Source of the DNA: Caenorhabditis elegans
Taxonomy: Eukaryota > Nematoda > Chromadorea > Rhabditida > Rhabditidae
DNA: 64,000 nt
Direction: 5' to 3'
NCBI RefSeq assembly: GCF_000002985.6
Contig: NC_003284.9
Coordinates: forward strand, 6,944,001 to 7,008,000
Positions 3,778 to 59,000 of this stretch are shown here, one piece after another. Numbering within the stretch: position 1 is the first letter of the stretch; every line of letters begins with the position of its first letter. The notes under the pieces are model-generated. The model did no database searches and was not told the origin of the DNA. It saw only the letters and a list, made by a program, of their open reading frames with translations. The translations under genes and the position numbers were made by a program.

Positions 3778-5556
3778 CTTCCTGACACGATCATTGAAGT
3801 TATGCCACAGAGCAACAATTAGTTCTGTAGCAAGAATATCTCCAGCATGTGCCGAAATCATTCTCATACAAAACACCTAAATACATCTTGTTAGTGAAGT
3901 GTTTCGAAAATCATAACATACTCCATCATATCCGAGGAACTTGTGAACAAACTTTTTCACCGACTGCCTGTCAGTTGCCAAATCTGTAGCTCGTAGATAT
4001 TTTCTGATGAACTTCATGTGCTGGAAAATGAAAAACAAAAGTTAAGTAAATCATAAAAAAAGGGTATTTCGGTTACCTGTCCTGGTAAGAAAGATATAAT
4101 AATCCAATGGAACATGGACACTGCTGACACAAAAGCTACCATGAAGTACCAGAACCAAAGGAACAAAAATATTTTCTCATTAAACATGTTAATCATTAGC
4201 ACGCATTGGACTGTATGATGATGCACATTACCCAGTACTCGTACCTTAAAACATTTTTTAAAACTGATACTAATCCACGTTGTTTTACCTCGAAATCACA
4301 CATAGTTACACGTGGAAAGTTCCCACTAACTTCCCATTCACGACCATTCAACAAATCTCTCAAAATGTGAAAGCCGTAAAAAAGGTTGTCAGTACCAAGG
4401 AAACTGTTTAACATAAACACTTGTAATACAACATTTCCAAGGTAGAGCATTTTAATAAATACATATAGTAATGTCACATAGTTTGCCCATCGCTTCTGGA
4501 CACACATGCCCGACACATCGGTGACCTGAAAATAGAGTTGATTTTGTTATTCACCAACATGACTTCCACAGACCTCTCGTTGAATTTCAAGAGCGTCTTC
4601 CATGTGCCCTGCAATTGTCTGCACGGTGGCTGCCCTGGCATCAGCATCCATCATTCGTGCATCGCATGCCATTTGAGTCAATGATTGCACATTGATTCCT
4701 GAAAAATAAAACAACGTAGGTCTCCCGTCTACTTATGTCAAATGGCACGCTGCGTTCCGAACACATCCTTCTCTCGCAGCTTTCATGATCAAGGCCCTCA
4801 TTTTTCTTCCAAGGTGATAAAAGTTTCTCTAGAATCGTTAGGCAATAAATTATTAATGGATCGCCTCTCCACTTCACACTTACTTTTCTCTAGACTACTT
4901 TCTTTTCTTTTTTCATTCTTTTCATCATCTCAGGCCTTGGCACATACGTATACACAGACACACACAGATTGCACAGTTGTGCGGTTTTAACGACCAATAT
5001 CGTCAGTTGGAAGTTCTTTTTTCTTTGGTTTCATCTCCCGTTTCATTATCTTACCAGAATGCCAGTGCAGCAGTCCTCTCCACATTATGCACGGGATGTA
5101 GAAACATAACGCTTCGAGCGCTAACACAAACGGCACCCATTGATAGTAACTGATTTGTCGTGCCCTGTAACAAGAAAAGTTTCTGAATAAGCTTGAATGT
5201 TTTAAATTACCTCCTGTCACCGTATTCTAATGGAAATGCACTTGTTAACGGGAGGTAGTATGTGTTTTCCACCCAACAATAGTTTTCGGTGTACTGTTCC
5301 CAAGCATCGGTGAACTGCGCAGGCACCCAACATTGTATCGGATAACCTGAAAGTAATTGATTTTAACGTGAAAAGGTAGGCGCAGAGAAGCTGAATTAAT
5401 GAAATCAGACTTACCTACGTACTGCTTGGCAGACACAATAATCGCAAACGCGAATATAATAGCAGAAGTATAGTGATAATTGAGCTTGTCCACAAAATCG
5501 TCGTCGACTCGCGGATGTAAGCCCTTGAATATGGCCGCCAGATAATATAGAAGCAT
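3778..5556 (-). CDS. inx-1: Innexin gap-junction channel protein, INX-1-like
   Basis: Innexins assemble invertebrate gap junctions and hemichannels at the plasma membrane. Eight exons join in phase: 5415-5556, 5211-5346, 5055-5164, 4574-4698, 4289-4525, 4077-4244, 3922-4020 and 3778-3876, giving 372 residues before the tail. The start [20 protein letters not shown] has the innexin N-terminal pattern. TM1 follows ([20 protein letters not shown]), then extracellular loop 1 with conserved cysteines (QCWVP, NYCWV), and the family signature YYQWVPF at the start of TM2. TM3 lies near [13 protein letters not shown] and the second loop carries further cysteines. TM4 is [20 protein letters not shown]. 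The family is certain. The symbol rests on recollection of C. elegans INX-1, not a search. An acceptor 15 nt before the ATG (FLSAG in frame) allows N-terminally longer isoforms. The terminal exon is uncertain (see 3526-3552 and 792-1000). Confidence 0.93.
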
Positions 5557-6906
5557 TCCGGCGGACAAGAACTGCAATGAAAACTACTTCATCCGTGCCG
5601 GCCGAGGATGTTTAGTGTGCGATGTTCAGGATGATACTTATAATGATCAGACTTAGAAATAGAATTATGCAAAAGTACGCAGTAGAAGCGGAAGAAAAAT
5701 AGAGCTAGAAAAAAACAAATATGTTAAACAGACAGAGGTGGATGAAACTCGAAAGGTTTCCCTGTGGGGCGTGGTCTAATGTCCACCCGTCTCTTTGCCG
5801 ATGAAACGATGACAAGCTTCTTCTTCTTCTTCTTCTTCTTTTCCATCTCGTCAGGAGGATACCTCCCGAAGAGCATATCAAATTGAGTTATAATCCTTTT
5901 AGTAGATTTTCATCCGTCCATCGCCCTCTTCGGCCAAATTTTTTATTGCCATCTTTTCTTATTTAAAGTCAAAAATGAAAAAAAAGTTGAAGAGCACGTA
6001 TGGACCGAATAAAACACAAAAAGAGGATATTAAAAAAAAGAAGATGAAGAACTATAAATATGATAAATGGATCTTGTGCATTTTGAAATAAAATTTCAAA
6101 AATTAAGAAAATAAAGACTTATGGAGTTTTTTTGTAGTTTTGTACCGTTTATCATTTTTAAGCCTCAAGAGAAAACAAAATCATCAAATGAATTAAAATT
6201 TAATTTATTTTCAAACTGTGCCTCGATAATATACAAGTACCAAAAGGATATCACCTCAAGGAAACGTTTGAATTCATTCACACTCTCCAAGTTATGATTG
6301 AAAATTAGGTATAACATTTGTTAAACGCATTTTAGCTATTTTTGAGATGTATGACGAAAGAAACTTAAATTTAATTTATACATTGACTTTGAACAGCAAA
6401 TATTCAAAAGTCGTAATTTATGGTACATAGACAGTTATGAATCTGATATCCGCGACAAAAAAAACTTCAAAGTTTACCCTAAAAAATTTCCCGCGTGTTT
6501 AATTAAAATATGATTACCTAAAATAAAGTGTATTTGTGAAAAGCACAGAAAATAATTTTTGAATCTATTTAGTAACATTTAGAAATTTAGATTTATTGAA
6601 AAAGATAATACCCATTATTAGTTATTTGTATTTTTATATACCGTACTTCAAGGAATTGTGGTAACTACAGAAATAATTAACTTGGTGTTTTACTTTTCAA
6701 AAAATTTAATAAATTTAGATTTCTGGGTGTTACTAAAGTTTTGGTTTGAAACACATTAATATATAAATTTTATTTAAAAAAACATTGTATTGCTTTTCAG
6801 AACTGTAATCAATTATTTATCATTGTTTTTCTGTGTTTCTGTTCAAAATTCGAAACGGCAAATTTGGCGCAAATCTGAATACCCAATTGTTTATGAGCAG
6901 ATTTTT
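5557..6906. other. Innexin upstream/first-intron region
   Basis: There is no coding signal. An in-frame acceptor lies at 5571. A (CTT)n microsatellite sits at about 5818-5840. From 5900 to 6860 the DNA is very AT-rich with T-runs. If the 7399-7518 exon is used, this is its 1.8-kb intron. Otherwise it is the innexin promoter. Confidence 0.5.
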
Positions 6907-43900: not shown

Positions 43901-45856
43901 GTTTTTTCTATGAAGCAGTAAAAATTCTCTTCACCCCAAACGGCAACACCCACTCTTTTTGGTAATTCGACACATTTTTACGTTTCGTTTTTTTCAAAAC
44001 GTGTGTTCTCGTTTTTCTGATTTTAAAGAGAAGACAAATTGGAGGGTAAGTGCGTTTTAGAAAGCAACAAAAAAAAAGAACAGAACCTGCTGCTGGTCAA
44101 CCCCAAAACTAGGCCCCGCCTCTTTTCGTGAAAGTTCCAACTCATTCTTTCGGTCAACTCTTAACCTAGGACATTCCATTTTCTTTATTTCCTTCTTCCA
44201 TCCTCATTTTCACTCCCACCCCATCACCTAATGATCATGATTAAAAGGATTATGAACAGATTAACTTAATACCATGAGACCAATTCAGAATCAACACTGG
44301 GCTCTTTCAAATCAGAATAATATGCTGCCCAAAAAATTCTGGATTCCAAATTTTCAAGTCTGTCTGCAACCCACAGCATATTCATCCATTGTAAGAAAAG
44401 AGTAATAATCTAATCAAGGACTCCTTTTTTCTGCTCCCCGCTTTCATTAACAATAAGAAAACGTACTAACACTGGCTTCAAAAATTTTGGCTCCGCCCTC
44501 CGATAAATCTAAAGTTCTACGCCCAATCCCAGTGGATAATAATTCACTGTACTGAATATCATCCTTATTTTCATCCTAATTTTTAGCTTCATTTTCATCC
44601 TTATCTTCAACAGCAAACATATTTTTCAGTAACTCTTTATTTTTTCTGTCAACAAACCTTTACTACTGCTAAATCTGAAATTAAGTTTATCAATTGAAAT
44701 AAAATAATGTAATTGGATTAAAAAATGAGTATTTTTTGGGAATTGTATTGTATAGACCCAAAATGTGCTCAACATTTTTTATGGCGGTTCCAATTTCATC
44801 AAAAAATTATCTCTAAAACCTCTACTCTCGCCAACTTTTTATTTTTGCGACAGACGGAAGAGAGCATTTTTTTTAAAATTGCATCCTCCCCCCAATTCTC
44901 TTTTATTTTTCGTTAATTAAAGTACATTTCAAGCAGATAGGTAACCAAAAATGGTCAACATTGATACCTATTGGCTTAAATGCCCCTTAATTAACAAAGA
45001 AACGTGACTTAAACAATCAAACTATGCAATAATATATAATAGTTATATGATAGCTAATAGCCAAAAAAAAGTAGGTTTTTTTTTCGAAATTTTAAACCAT
45101 CATGAAAATTTTGAAAGCAGTTTGATAGATCATAACAAAGTTTGTTGATTTGATCACATTTTGAGACAAAAACCCAATACCGAATAACTTGTGGTAATGT
45201 CGATTTTTTTTACAAATTCTTCTGAAATATTTAACATTTGCTATAGTCCATCAATGATCATCAAGGAAAAAAAACAAAAATCTTATAGCCTAACAAAAAA
45301 CTTTATAAAGCAAAAATTGTAATTCTCTCCTTTTTGTCTCGAGTTGTCAAACTCGTTTTTATTGACGTCATTGTTTTTTCTCATCAACGGAAATGGCCCC
45401 CGTCAATTTATCCAAAAATCTTTGCTCAATCTCAGGAGACGAACGCTGCAACCTGATGAGAATCAAGCGGTCAGCGCAAAAGCACAATTTTGTTCTTTTT
45501 TCTCCGTTTCGAATTCTAGACACTAATCATCGTTTCCTCTATTAATGTTATAGCAATCTTGACTAAAATGTCGGGAGTTTTTATTTATTTAACGAATTTT
45601 TTCCAGAATAAAAACTTTTATTTCTCATTTACCCTACTTGCAGATTTGGCCAAAAAGTTTGCCATTGCGCGCTTCATCACATAACTAGCTCAATCGGGGC
45701 CGGTTACATCTCACTGACCTTCACGTGAAACATTGTGCCGGCAGAAGAAGTATAAGAGAAATCTGTCGGATTGTTGAAATCGTCTAATAGCTCAAGTGGC
45801 AAAAAATACTCACGAAAAGTATACGTCGTCATTTCTTCGAACTGACTTTCAACTAG
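40967..45856. other. Intergenic DNA upstream of the peptide gene
   Basis: This is about 4.9 kb without a supported gene. A plus frame at 41817-42122 (about 100 codons) is open but opposite frames are too. A TGTACAGTG tandem lies near 42593-42625. A CT-rich promoter-like area occupies about 43900-44520. DNA at 45070-45200 resembles 8990-9075. Promoter elements of the peptide gene are expected in its last kilobase. Confidence 0.4.
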
Positions 45857-45877
45857 AAGTCGGTTCCCCTATTCCTG

Positions 45878-46643
45878 ATGACATCAATTTTTTACCCATT
45901 CTGCTCTGCTTTAGTCATTTTTCTACTTGCGATCAGAACACAGGTTTGTCAATTGTTCTTGAATTAGGAATATTTATGTTTTACGTACCAAATAATGACG
46001 ACAAGTCAGCTAGAAAATTCTGGAAGAATATTTTACTATTTTGATACTCATTCGATATTCTCGTGTGTACTGCAATTTCACATTTCTTCCGGTTCTTCCA
46101 TGACGAGGATTATTAATTAAACAATTGAATAACTTTTTTGTAGTTTTAAGAACAACAAAGGCTTCCTTGATGTTTGATTGTTCAATTTTAATAAAAATAT
46201 TTGATTTTAAAATTGAAAATACAGTGAAATCATTGAAACCTTCAAGCGTCAAAACACTAATGAAAGGTTAATCTTTCAATATATTTGTTTCTTTGCAGGC
46301 TTCCCTATTTGATCCTTCACAATCAGATGTTAGTTTATTTGACAGATTAAGACTGGTAAGTTAATATTCATTTTATAAAGTAGGAAATGAAAAAGTGAAA
46401 ACTCAAAACACAAGTGATATCATTAGTGTTTCAGGAAACGGATCTTAGAAATGGAGCTTCTTTAATACGAGAGATTCTTGAATCGAAAACAAACAACGCT
46501 CAATTACAGGACTTGGAAAGATTAACAGGTAGACAACATAGAATAGACTTTCTCAGATTACCCACAATTTTTCAGAGCACTACCGTTCAAAAAGATGCCG
46601 CTGGAAGCTTTGTGGAACAGGTCGGCGTTTCCGGTTCAACTGA
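45878..46643 (+). CDS. Secreted prepropeptide with CRWKLC loop, candidate neuropeptide
   Basis: Four exons join in phase to 94 residues: 45878-45943, 46299-46355, 46435-46528 and 46576-46643. The last intron is 47 nt and ends AATTTTTCAG. Exon 1 encodes a signal peptide (MTSIFYPFCSALVIFLLA), with an acceptor-like TTTCAACTAG 21 nt upstream. A pro-region follows (ASLFDPSQSDVSLFDRLRL and onward). The end reads HYRSKR, then CRWKLCGTGRRFRFN. KR is a proprotein convertase site. The two cysteines would close a six-residue ring, and GRR could give an amidated CRWKLCGT. Reading through the last intron also stays open (ending FIRAFLHHPS), but its codon use is worse. CxWKxC recalls the ring of vertebrate urotensin II (CFWKYC). 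That likeness is by eye and does not prove descent. I cannot name the gene. Confidence 0.78.
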
Positions 46644-47848
46644 TATTCGCATCAATCAAGACATGATCTCCTTCAATATCTCAAGTTCAACGTTTTATTT
46701 TCTCAGTATTTCCATTTTTATACGCGCATTTCTTCATCACCCGTCGTAGTTATCGTCATCTCAGCTTGTATATCAGAACTGTCTAGAACACAAATATATT
46801 GTCCCGTTGGCTACGATGCACATACGTCACGAAACACAAACCTTTCTCATTAACCAATCTCTCCTGTCACTTTTCGTTTTCACAGTCACTGTCAAAATTG
46901 TCAATCATTTCCTGTGCTTGCTCTTCTGTACATAAAAATTTTTGAGAATGGAATTTAAAGCACAAATGAAGAGAACAGTTTTAATGAACCTTTTCTACTT
47001 TTTCAAATGTAACACTTCAAAAATATGAGAGTTGATATTGAAAAGTGTTTTATATTCTTAAATTGGTGCTGATTGCTCAAATAACGAGAATACTGTTCGT
47101 AAATTAAAAAAAATTAGAATTTTTCCTTTTGTGAATGTCCTGAATATAATATCAAATAAGTCTAAAACTCAACACTTATCCGTTGAAAATTCGCAATGAA
47201 CAATTTTCAGAGCATTTTCTCACTGATATCAAGGTTAGAAGAAAGGCGCCAAAAGTGGTTATGCAGACTTTTAAGAATTTGAACAGTGCTTGAAAATAGG
47301 AGAGCATTGAGGAAGCTTTTTGAAAACAATTTTTTTTTTGATAAAATCTTAAATAATTTTCTAAACATTTTTCAAAAAAGTTTCAGAACTGTTTCCGACT
47401 CTAAACATTCTTAAATTACAGAAAAGTTGTTTTCAGCACAGTTTCACAGATATTGCAACTATTTGAAGTATGTCTTGAAAAACTTGAATTCAAAATTTTA
47501 GGAGTTTAGTGGTTTTTAGTGGCAGGAAAATAGCGATTTTGAACTATGGGAATGGCATGACTAAAATTTTAGTTATAATAGTATAATAGCATTACTGAAT
47601 TTCTATTTTCAAATTAGTTGGCAAAGTTGAGTTTTTTGCGATTAGTTCCTCAAAAAGATAAATCTGTTTGGCCATCGCGTTGACCCTCCCTTCTTACCGC
47701 CAATGTCCACGTCGGCCAAGAGAGTCAATGTTTGCCGTACCAGGCAAGGAAAGTACCGTGCCCATAGCTCCACATTGTGCCTTACCTACCCCCGTCGATC
47801 GACTCGTTTATTCACTTACTCGTCAAACCTCAATAGGTCACCCTCACT
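46644..47848. other. Intergenic DNA between peptide gene and UGT
   Basis: There is no gene. It includes the read-through open frame after the peptide stop (to 46749), AT-rich DNA, and a C-rich patch at 47680-47800 close to the UGT start that is probably its promoter. The acceptor-like CTCAATAG lies 15 nt before the UGT ATG. Confidence 0.5.
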
Positions 47849-50014
47849 ATGCGGATTTTAATATTATTATTGGGATTGACACAAATCGTTACTAGTCTAA
47901 ATATTCTCGTGTTTTTGTTGGGAACCAATCAGTTTGAAAGGAACATTTTTGAATTTCTTGCACAACAACTTGCTCTACGTCACCATAATGTAATTTCAAT
48001 CAAGCCAGTACTAATCCCAGAGGAGCCTCGCCTAGTCAAGCCGAAGTTGCACCTTGTCCGTGAGAAAGTTATCAAGAATGTTTTGAACAAGTAAGTGACC
48101 CCCCCTCTCCTTTTGCCACAAATTAAGTGGCGGCTTGCAACAAAACGAAGAAAGATCCCACGCAATGCGTAATTTGTACACATTTCGTCATAGCGGCACT
48201 TGTACTTATTCATCCACAAATCAAATTCGTCATTTTCTAGGGACTTGTTCAAGCCATTAGAAGATGCTGTGCCAAATGCTGCGTGGAGATCTACCTATGA
48301 TTTCGATAACTACTTGGAGCCATATTATAAAGCTCACAATGCCAGTTGCTACAAAGTGAGATCAGAGTGTAAATTTAGAAAAAAATAAAAATATAATTTT
48401 GTTTTCAGCTTTTGAATTCCAATCTTGTTGATTCGCTGAAAAAAGAATCTTTGGATCTGGCAATTGTGTACTCTGGAAACCCATGCCTAAACGCACTAAC
48501 TCATCTTGTAGCGGTTCCTACAATATATTTCGATACGGAAGGTAATAACAAATTTTGAAAAAAAAACAAAGTCCCACAAATAACCTTTCAAGGATTGACG
48601 GACGAAACATTGATTGCCGCTGGAGCCCCAATAGACTTGCTCACTCCGCCATCGCACTGTTTTATCGCCGAGTCAAAAGGATATCCAATTCTTAATTTGT
48701 ACAAAAACTCAGTGTGCTACTTCCAAGAAATGATTGCTCAACTTGGACTTCCAGCCGTATCATCTCTTGTTTCTTCACGTCATCGTCTTCTTGATGAACC
48801 CATTACGAATATATTCAGAACGGATTATACTATTAAAAAGAGGTGAAATTTTTTTGATCTTGTGTGTTCTGGTAAAGTAAATCCCATTCTAATCCAATTA
48901 GGTATGGTTTGCAAAAACTTTTTGAAAAAGATTTGTAGATACATTAAATTAGAAACATTATTTATTAATTATTTGGTTCCAGGTTCAAAAACTTCCCGAA
49001 TGTCAATACCTTGAAACAACAAAGTGCCGCTTATTTTGTGAACACCGATCCACTCCTCGAGCCGCCACGTGCTCTTCCATTAAATGTGATTCCTGTTGGA
49101 GGACTCCATATCGATCACCCCAAGCCTCTGTTCTCGGTACAAAGTTTCTCATTTTGATTATTTTTCAAATTTACTATTTCCAGCCATGGAACACTACCAT
49201 TGCATCAGCAAAAGAAGGATTGATTATTGTGTCGTTTGGAACTCAAGCAGATAGCAGCAAAATGAGCGAATACCACGCCAAAGCAATTTTGAAAGCTCTT
49301 ACAAACTTGAATGACTATAGAATCTATTGGCGCATCGGTCCAAACATGCATCTCGATGGAATTGATATAGAAAAGATTCCAAAGCATATCAACTTGACGA
49401 CTTTCATTCCACAAAATGATCTTCTTGCCCACAAATCCTGCAAACTTTTTGTAACGAATGGTGGAATGTCATCTGTCATGGAAGCTGTTGCTCATGGAGT
49501 TCCAATTGTTGGAGTACCATTATACGGATCTAATAGATACAATTTACAAAAGGTTTCAAACAAGGGTCTTGGTATTGTCATTGATAAAGACGATCTTAAT
49601 GAAATTTCACTGTATGGAGCAATGAAAAAGGTTTTAGAGTCTGCAAAGTAAGTTAAACTAGGACTTTTTTAAAAATTTATATTGCTATTTTACAGATACA
49701 AGAACACTGCAAAGGAAATGTCAAAAGAATTCAAATCCCGAACCACTAGCCCATTTGCTGCTGCACTTCATGTTATTGATCACATTGGACGTCATCATTC
49801 ATTTGCATACATGCAACCTGCCTTTCAGCCAATTTACACACGTGTCGACTTTTATCTCCTTTTGCTCATCATTCTTCTTCCAGTCATACCTCTTCATCTG
49901 TTCTTCACATTTTGTATCAAATCATCAGCAATGAATGTGCAAGATAACAAAGTCCTAGAGGCGGAAAGGAAGTTTCTCCCGAAAAAAGTTCCGGAAACTA
50001 AGAAAAATGCGTGA
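47849..50014 (+). CDS. UDP-glycosyltransferase, ER type I membrane protein
   Basis: UGTs transfer a sugar from a UDP-sugar to small lipophilic molecules in the ER lumen. Seven exons join in phase: 47849-48090, 48241-48355, 48409-48541, 48593-48842, 48983-49136, 49184-49647 and 49696-50014, giving 558 residues. There is a signal peptide (MRILILLLGLTQIVTSL), then an N-terminal acceptor domain. The UDP-sugar signature FVTNGGMSSVMEAVAHGVPI, then VGVPLYGSNRYN is near residues 400-435. A C-terminal membrane helix (FYLLLLIILLPVIPLHLFF) is followed by a lysine-rich cytosolic tail ending KKVPETKKNA. In most UGTs an SH motif supplies the catalytic histidine about 15 residues before the GHNV-like motif. 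Here the region reads GTNQFERNIFEFLAQQLALR then HHNV, with no histidine at that place. A polyadenylation signal AATAAA is at 50140. It may be ugt-50, but I am not sure enough to assign the symbol. Confidence 0.95.
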
Positions 50015-56000: not shown

Positions 56001-59000
56001 GTTTATTTTGTGAACCTCATTCTTCTTGTGACAAGTTTTTTTTCTATAATTTTTAAGGAAGAAAATGATAAATTTTGATGGAAAAAGGTTTATCATTGAA
56101 ATTAAAACGAATTCAAAAACATTTTTGGGTACAGCTAATACAGAAAAAACTAACTATGTTAAAAGTATCCGTTTTAAAAAAATATTTGTACCGTGTATAC
56201 TTTTTCATGTTTTTTTTCAGAAGCAAAGTTAAAATAGAAAGCAAATCAACAGTTTCTGTTAATCGATTTTGTATTGAAAAAATCATCTATATTAAATCGT
56301 TTTTAATTTAAAATATTTCGAAAGTTATATTCAAGGTTTGTATTTTTTTGATTCCTTTGTCAATCTTGTGTGGTTCTTTTTTCAAGGAATTTATAAAAAA
56401 TTCATGCGTGGACAATCAGAAAAGCGGAAAATCCATGCGTGGCAGTGTGCAGTATGACTATCTGATTTGAATTTTCAGAACCTCGGTTTCTAATTTGTTA
56501 AACGTCTAGTTTCTATATTTCTGTTGCAGACCACATACACACACACTCTAGTGCTCTATAGCTATGGGGAAGGTGTTGGTGAATTGAAGTGGTGTTGTGG
56601 ACAAAACACATGGTGAATAAATATCAAAAATATGTATGAAAATGGTTCTTACATGAGACGAGACGGCCAGCTAAAAATTGAGGAGATTTATTTTTATGAT
56701 TACATACATTTATTTGTAATATTGAACAGTTTCTTCATTTTTGTATAAGGATTCATGCAAAATTCATGGTTGATAATGAAAATCATACGATGAAAAATGC
56801 GGGCTTCATTTTGCTTTGTTGGTTGTAAGATTTATTGAAAAACGGTTTTTTCTTATTTTTAACGATCTTAAATTGTTTGCAGCAAATTTTTCACTGAAAC
56901 TCACCTTCTGACGGTAAATCTGCCGAGCGCGATGTTTTGCAAACGCTTGATAGATTTTGAAGTATACAAAAAACATGAGCAGTGTTGGAATGAAGAACGA
57001 GCCTGTTGCCGAGTAGACCGTGTAGCTAGGCAGGTCCAAAAATGTGCATTGGCGGACTGTATTGTTCTTTTCGTAGATTAAATTTGGAGTTTGAGCAGTC
57101 TAAACGATGATTTTGATTTATTTATCTCATACTTATAATAAATACCTGTTTCCAGCCGAGAAGTGGTGCAAGGGATATCAATGCACTAGATATCCAGACT
57201 GATAATATCATTATACCCGCTGTTCTCTTGTTTCTTTTACTCATATAAGCGACCGGACTGGTGATAGCCCAATATCTGTCAAGACCGACGATTGAGAGGT
57301 TCCAGATAGAAGCGGTCGAGCAGAGAATGTCAGCTGAATTTTTTGATATATATAGAATATTATTCTGCTTGGAAGGTATTTTTCGGCCGAATTCTGCCCA
57401 GACCTGTGCGCATCAGAATATTGCCTTTTTTTTGGAATTTTTTACAAATTTGGAAAATCGGCATTTTTCAGATTTGCCGAATTTGTCGGAAATGAACTTA
57501 GCGAACGACTATTTCCGCTAATTCTTCAGTCTATTCATCTAATGAATTTCACTTTCAGAACATTATCTTCATACAAACTTTTTCTATTATTACCTGACAC
57601 AAAAACTTCACATAATGCGTCAGGAAAAACCCATTCTCCAGCAATAGCATACACAGATGATAATGGCAAAACTATTAATCCGAGAGCCAGATCGGAGAAT
57701 GCCAGATTACCGACCTGCAAGGCATGGCGTACTTGTTTTATCCAAGTTTAAACTACACATACCAATAGATTAGGAACAGTTTGAAGTCGTGGGTTTTTGT
57801 ATAGCACTATGAACACCAGCGAGTTTGCAAAAATTGTCCATAACACCAGTAGGAAGAGTGCGCTTCCTTTCAGGATCTGAATTGTTTCATGTTGGTGATA
57901 TTGATTTCTGATAAATCCCTTCAAATTCCCAACCAACTTTTTAGGGCAGAAAAGAGAATGATGGTCTACATCTTCTCCTGCTCCTTCTCCTTTTTCTGCG
58001 AAGCACATATGAGATTAAATGGATATGAGCAGTGTGTATGTGTAATATTATAGGGATGAGAGCACACACGCGTGCGCGTGTTAAAACTAGCCGTGGACAC
58101 AAATTTATGATGATTAGTTGTTCTGGGTCTCCCTAGTAGCGTCCCTGGTATGTCCTGCTCATCAAACTTTTTTTCGTGCATCCTCCCGTCATTTTGTCCT
58201 CTCACCAATGGCCACTTCTATTTGTCGTCAAAACTTTGGATGGGTGTATAGAAAAATTTAGGTTTGGGATTCTTATTGAGTTTCACCACAGATGTGTTTG
58301 GGACATGACGGATATTTCAGAATGTCAGAGATCATGTTGGGCAATTTCAACAGTAATTCTTCAAATATTTAATGTGTTAATCACTGTTCTTGACAAGAAG
58401 CTTCCGAGTACTTTCTAGAATAGGAAAATTAGTTTTTGTTCAATGTCAGTATTTAGTATGCTCTTGCCTTCTGTCCACACTTATACAACCCGTTGATTGC
58501 TGAATGATCAATGAGGGCAGGTCAACTAGTTCACAGATCTTCCTCACTTTTTTTCACAGTGTAAATTACCTAATGATATGACAAAAAAACCCTAAAATTC
58601 AGTCTTGCTTCAACAAAATTGAATGTTTTCAAATAAAATCCGGGACTGCTTTGGAATTCTGATCAAACTTCAAGGAGGCATATATAATCAAAATTTTCAG
58701 ATTTTTGATTCAAGCGATTCTCAATAGACTTTCAACTCCCATGTTGTCGACTTTATCAAATAAATCTCAAAATGCCATGTGATGCTTTGAAATCAGATTT
58801 TTTTTCGAAAAATAAAAATCAACATTTTTGTGCGGCAGAAACAACTAGTGGACCCATATTCCGCATCAACAACTATAAATAGCAAGCCAATCAGGGACGG
58901 CTGTTGAGAAGAGGAGAAGTCTTCTTGTGCCTTTTGTGGAGGCGGAAAGAGATTATGCAATTTTCTTGGCTTCAACCTAAATCTTCAAATCTACGAGCAT

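Follow-up and report, generated by a model that had tools for sequence, protein, structure and literature searches.

Does a short stretch of the Caenorhabditis elegans X chromosome (X:6,989,878-6,990,643) encode a peptide hormone? The peptide signalling of the C. elegans nervous system is the subject of comprehensive mapping, in which a missing ligand gene would leave a hole; genes that are short, have poor splice sites and lack homologues are of a type that can escape such surveys. We examined the locus within a window, by which we mean the whole stretch of 64,000 nt that was analysed (X:6,944,001-7,008,000), and positions below are counted from its first letter unless a chromosome is named. 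The stretch probably encodes a small secreted protein. The reading that we favour, at slightly better than even confidence, is a C. elegans gene that codes for the secreted precursor of a peptide hormone and gives rise to one cyclic, possibly amidated peptide, CRWKLCGT-NH2.

Gene model and predicted processing

Four in-phase exons with GT-AG ends at all three introns translate into a 94-residue secreted precursor (Table 1), reproducing exactly the coordinates and protein that an earlier note on this DNA had put forward. The frame comprises 285 nt and closes at a TGA stop (46641-46643), with the fourth exon contributing EHYRSKRCRWKLCGTGRRFRFN to the product. The C-terminus reads HYRSKR-CRWKLC-GTG-RR-FRFN, in agreement with the dibasic site, two-cysteine hexapeptide ring and GRR that had been described there.

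Table 1. Parts of the candidate precursor gene and its probable leader, in window coordinates
Feature	Position	Strand	Basis or remark
ATG-free stretch, probable 5' leader	45569..45877	+	previous ATG starts 310 nt upstream
Acceptor-like TTTTTTCCAG; TTGCAG; TATAA	ends 45606; ends 45643; 45751	+	inside probable leader
Exon 1, signal peptide MTSIFYPFCSALVIFLLAIRTQ	45878..45943	+	translation; Kyte-Doolittle; allowed cleavage site
Intron 1, 355 bp, phase 0, CAG/GTTTGT ... TTTGCAG	45944..46298	+	
Exon 2, pro-region ASLFDPSQSDVSLFDRLRL	46299..46355	+	translation
Intron 2, 79 bp, phase 0, CTG/GTAAGT ... GTTTCAG	46356..46434	+	
Exon 3, pro-region ETDLRNGASLIREILESKTNNAQLQDLERLT	46435..46528	+	stops in both other frames
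Intron 3, 47 bp, phase 1, weak donor CAG/GTAGAC, strong acceptor TTTTTCAG	46529..46575	+	
Exon 4, EHYRS-KR-CRWKLC-GTG-RR-FRFN-stop, putative mature peptide	46576..46643	+	
KR dibasic cleavage site, within RSKR	46590..46595	+	
C-R-W-K-L-C ring	46596..46613	+	
G-T-G-R-R tail: amide-donor Gly and second dibasic site	46614..46628	+	

Exon 1 is hydrophobic (best 12-residue Kyte-Doolittle mean 2.96), and TQA/SLFD is one of three allowed signal cleavage sites. In the spliced form, and in that form only, no second hydrophobic segment follows residue 23 (best 19-residue mean -0.11), which gives the combination of a predicted signal peptide and no other hydrophobic segment that is general to neuropeptide precursors. 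Past the signal peptide there are just two cysteines (80 and 85) and only two dibasic sites, which flank the ring: KR 78-79 stands before the peptide and G-RR 88-90, with its amide-donor glycine, after it, again as in neuropeptide precursors generally. On the hormone-precursor reading, the signal peptide would be removed, probably after A23, and a proprotein convertase would cut after RSKR (residue 79), presumably a furin-type site, and after RR (residue 90). A carboxypeptidase would then trim RR, the exposed glycine would be converted to an amide and the two cysteines would close a disulphide ring, yielding CRWKLCGT-NH2; were the second site left uncut, the product would be CRWKLCGTGRRFRFN. 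In cyclic form the two predicted products have calculated [M+H]+ values of 963.465 and 1897.954, respectively. Neurons or gland cells would release the peptide, and its receptor would most likely be a class A GPCR.

The charge of the precursor is unevenly distributed, with an acidic pro-region (net -3) and a basic C-terminus (net +5), the latter charge falling within the 15 residues of CRWKLCGTGRRFRFN. This contrast is also what speaks for a secreted cationic host-defence peptide, in which CRWKLCGTGRRFRFN would be released from the acidic pro-region and target microbial membranes. A single short two-cysteine ring followed by G-R-R is, however, a neuropeptide pattern, and the precursor has no Pfam match; we regard a host-defence role as quite unlikely.

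Beyond the locus, Pfam identified a UDP-glucuronosyltransferase exon at 48953-49648 (+) and two 7TM receptor exons at 56809-57099 and 57125-57412 (-), the second of which has 5-HT1A as its nearest solved structure; we take this receptor gene (56809-57412, -) to be tyra-2 (F01E11.5). At about 53.6 kb the minus strand carries a neuropeptide-like KREAK text, which we discarded, as on inspection it lies amid receptor-loop-like sequence and probably belongs to the neighbouring GPCR. The window also contains an innexin exon (5248-5583, -), close to its left end.

Chance, composition and the leader

Open frames and splice-like sites might line up by chance in AT-rich intergenic DNA, in which case there would be no gene here. 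Total codon evidence near zero is consistent with this, as is the lack of a homologue in Pfam, among solved structures and in the paralogue search; on synonymous codons, exons 2 and 3 both score below zero (-2.26 and -0.87). The null model admitted chains of up to four exons whose product has 60-160 residues, a hydrophobic N-terminus and [KR]R-C-x(3-12)-C within its last 30 residues. The splice thresholds were 1.5 bits for donors (locus minimum 1.52) and 4.0 for acceptors (locus minimum 4.44). Dinucleotide shuffling of 45401-47400 yielded no such precursor in 3000 trials, with this motif or a stricter one, and among real 2-kb segments, taken from both strands of the window and of 20 further 10-kb pieces, only 1 of 366 yielded a model, which was this locus, against 0 of 366 reversed segments; these figures are optimistic, because the thresholds were placed just under the locus's own splice scores after the locus had been seen. 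A rate just under 1/1000 per 2 kb of strand would allow up to about 100 false models genome-wide.

The exons (GC.36,.35,.36 and.515) are richer than the introns between them (.28,.25 and.34), and the flanks, at.40 upstream and.35-.375 downstream, are as rich as exons 1-3. Exon 4 is a local GC peak: just 22 of the 2433 segments of its size in 45000-47499 are equally rich, and the last of these 22 start at 46574-46583. No ATG begins anywhere in the 309 nt that precede the start codon, against 5.1 predicted by composition, whilst other triplets checked in this leader occur 2 to 7 times each; an ATG gap as long as this one accounts for 67 of 8784 gaps. The GC differences and the ATG-free leader are independent signs that point the same way as the chance tests, and together with the shuffles and reversed segments they make the absence of any gene very unlikely.

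Two palindromes upstream of the start codon each occur only once in the window. The first, a perfect CRE (TGACGTCA), occupies 45363-45370, some 515 nt before the start codon; the second, an E-box (TTCACGTGAA), occupies 45720-45729, some 158 nt before it. Both are possible promoter elements.

The last intron and the frame of exon 4

The earlier note had cautioned that reading through the last intron gives a different, hydrophobic end, and translation confirms this: with intron 3 unspliced, the frame stays open to a stop at 46747-46749 and the product has 145 residues. A real gene might thus produce a secreted protein of that length ending ...FNISSSTFYFLSISIFIRAFLHHPS, perhaps membrane-attached, with CRWKLC an out-of-frame accident. 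An open frame of 116 residues at 46399-46749 (+), which reads out of intron 2 and across exon 3, intron 3 and exon 4 into the hydrophobic end, is the main competitor for the frame of the last exon.

The splice signals of intron 3 are uneven. Its donor, CAGGTAGAC, is weak at 1.52 bits (on assumed frequencies), which favours read-through; it sits at the 30th percentile of 27 self-trained donors, and 15% of all GTs in the window score at least as well. The acceptor is ACAATTTTTCAG. Across 264 kb, TTTTTCAG was seen 99 times against 54-78 expected and is only 1.3 to 1.8 times commoner than expectation, so that the acceptor alone is modest evidence. The length of the intron, 47 bp, is the commonest among C. 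elegans introns, and if intron 3 is not spliced both this length and the TTTTTCAG acceptor would be coincidence. Exon 3 has a single open frame and no other GT inside it; given a GT donor in that exon, the TTTTTCAG acceptor and the frame therefore stand or fall together.

Codon usage was scored in two ways. The full codon log-odds in exon 4 were -0.05 bits for the spliced frame versus +3.1 for read-through, in favour of the latter, and +2.2 for the third frame, and 54% of 613 out-of-frame segments scored at least as well as the spliced frame; over the whole read-through (73 codons), however, the same measure falls to -1.6, against the unspliced protein. The synonymous-codon score also runs against it, at +1.79 for the spliced exon 4 versus -0.99 for the overlapping read-through, with -1.74 for intron 3 taken as coding. 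The two versions of the score disagree and are too weak to decide the frame of exon 4.

The ring motif was also searched for across the genome. KR-C-x-W-K-x-C occurs in three places (reversed-pattern control 0), and at both of the others a longer open frame runs alongside, so that they look like out-of-frame readings, a point in favour of an accidental CRWKLC here. The ring motif alone is nothing special genome-wide. A variant, KR-C-x-W-x-x-C-G, is unique to the locus, yet its reversed-pattern control gave 1 + 2 places and we do not count it as evidence. Against the unspliced protein are also the coincidence of the GC peak with exon 4 and, on inspection, an arginine in the hydrophobic end, which is poor for a GPI signal. 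Weighing these points, we consider the 145-residue protein unlikely though far from negligible, and are reasonably confident that splicing occurs as drawn in Table 1.

Relatives and known ring-peptide systems

No family in Pfam matches the 94-residue precursor at E<=10. Among solved structures it has no relative, the one match (E 1.3) being meaningless, and the paralogue search of the genome, in which the best candidates were scored, returned nothing beyond the gene's own exons; a lone outside match on chromosome II (E 1.3) was rejected as it is not a recognisable precursor. These results bear out the earlier view that the pro-region fits no known family. Bacterial and viral collections, searched on the slim chance that they contain stray nematode DNA, gave 153 and 39 pattern matches, none of which was confirmed, as expected. 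Pieces of the sequence were not found in the open-access main texts searched, nor did a search of these texts for later nlp numbers find anything, and no title or abstract opening among the matches listed concerned this peptide; it is quite possible that a name already exists in WormBase or a supplementary table.

Vasopressin/oxytocin-type peptides, including nematocin, have a C-x4-C ring that opens the mature peptide and a short tail with a Gly amide donor ahead of basic residues. The candidate is similar in that a C-x4-C ring opens the predicted mature peptide and is followed by a short tail with G-R-R, from which amidation is predicted. It differs in having no neurophysin domain (no Pfam family was matched), which in vasopressin/oxytocin precursors lies downstream, in the position of the ring, which is C-terminal after KR rather than directly behind the signal peptide, and in its tail, which is G-T as opposed to P-x-G.

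With urotensin II and URP the candidate shares a six-residue ring, C-x-W-K-x-C, present in a single copy in the C-terminal region of the precursor after a dibasic site. The ring of vertebrate urotensin II is CFWKYC and stands at the extreme C-terminus, whereas CRWKLC has Arg for Phe and is followed by nine residues (GTG-RR-FRFN). A whole-genome search with the Pfam urotensin II profile (PF02083, E<=10) gave six matches, none at the candidate locus, and two of the six exceed the family cut-off (E 0.036 and 0.33). UII/URP genes have a phase-1 intron in the N-terminal coding part (PMC7536072, in part), whereas the candidate's first intron is phase 0. Membership of the urotensin II family was rejected on the missing PF02083 match and the phase of the first intron. 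The parallel drawn in the earlier note thus holds for the ring pattern and fails for the profile, leaving what appears to be a resemblance confined to the C-x-W-K-x-C ring.

One of the PF02083 matches, on chromosome IV (16,814,492-16,814,515, +; E 0.33), consists of a urotensin-like ring, SECFWKHCETFN, with a stop and AATAAA after it, in an open frame of 22 residues. It alone of the six has both cysteines; in the other five a second cysteine at the spacing of a ring is missing. Attempts to build a signal-peptide precursor around the chromosome IV ring failed, both at the splice thresholds used for the candidate and at looser ones. Base counts predict that chance would produce about three rings of this kind in a genome of this size, and this one is probably chance.

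The nearest known set of ring peptides in C. elegans is the allatostatin-C-like one, which includes nlp-55, -62, -64, -66, -67, -71, -79 and -88 to -91. Of these, nlp-88 to -91 have RNCFF(S/T)P(V/A)QC in common (PMC8764417, in part). NLP-99, the C. elegans somatostatin/allatostatin-C peptide GDGYGWNDCEFSPLSCLL with NPR-16 as its receptor, has the ring CEFSPLSC with six inner residues (PMC13082328, in part). As described in part of PMC7536072, rings have six residues in protostome ASTC and ten in human SS, and SS/ASTC genes carry a phase-0 N-terminal intron. The candidate has the two-cysteine ring and the small secreted precursor of this group, as well as a phase-0 intron after codon 22, although a phase-0 first intron alone proves little. 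It differs in a ring of four inner residues and an RWK core, with no F-x-P or FWK/IWK, the cores given for the group (PMC7536072, in part).

A positive-control pattern, CFF[ST]P..C, was found in ten places in the genome (reversed-pattern control 4 + 2), of which, on inspection, seven have RNCFF(S/T)P and the other three look accidental; the nlp-99 locus was also located. The seven (L038, L040, L041, L042, L044, L045 and L046) are spread over chromosomes II, IV and X, with a group of three inside 7 kb of X (8,218,519-8,224,591), and are probably the published AstC-like nlp genes. For eight of the eleven ring loci, the surrounding open frames were aligned with the candidate; the three that look accidental had been left out beforehand. 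Seven of the eight aligned no better than shuffles (34 to 198 of 200 equally good), and for L046, where 9 of 200 shuffles were as good, the alignment ran through a frame not shown to be that locus's precursor. As ring size and F-x-P differ and the alignments gave no convincing similarity, membership of the allatostatin-C group was rejected: the candidate is not allatostatin-C-like.

The somatostatin type, with its FWK/IWK core, is argued to have been lost in protostomes (PMC8851493, in part), so that a nematode W-K ring would be either a convergence or a survivor. We favour convergence because ring size differs and there is no sequence link. The C. elegans somatostatin/galanin-like group comprised 24 receptors, none of which had a known ligand in 2012 (PMC3527849, in part). 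That CRWKLCGT-NH2 belongs to an unrecognised Caenorhabditis ring-peptide system, keeping or re-inventing the receptor-facing core of somatostatin and urotensin and acting on a somatostatin/galanin-like GPCR, is a speculative idea to which we attach little probability. If the ring did act on such a receptor, it would bear on the origin or persistence of W-K ring hormones outside chordates and echinoderms.
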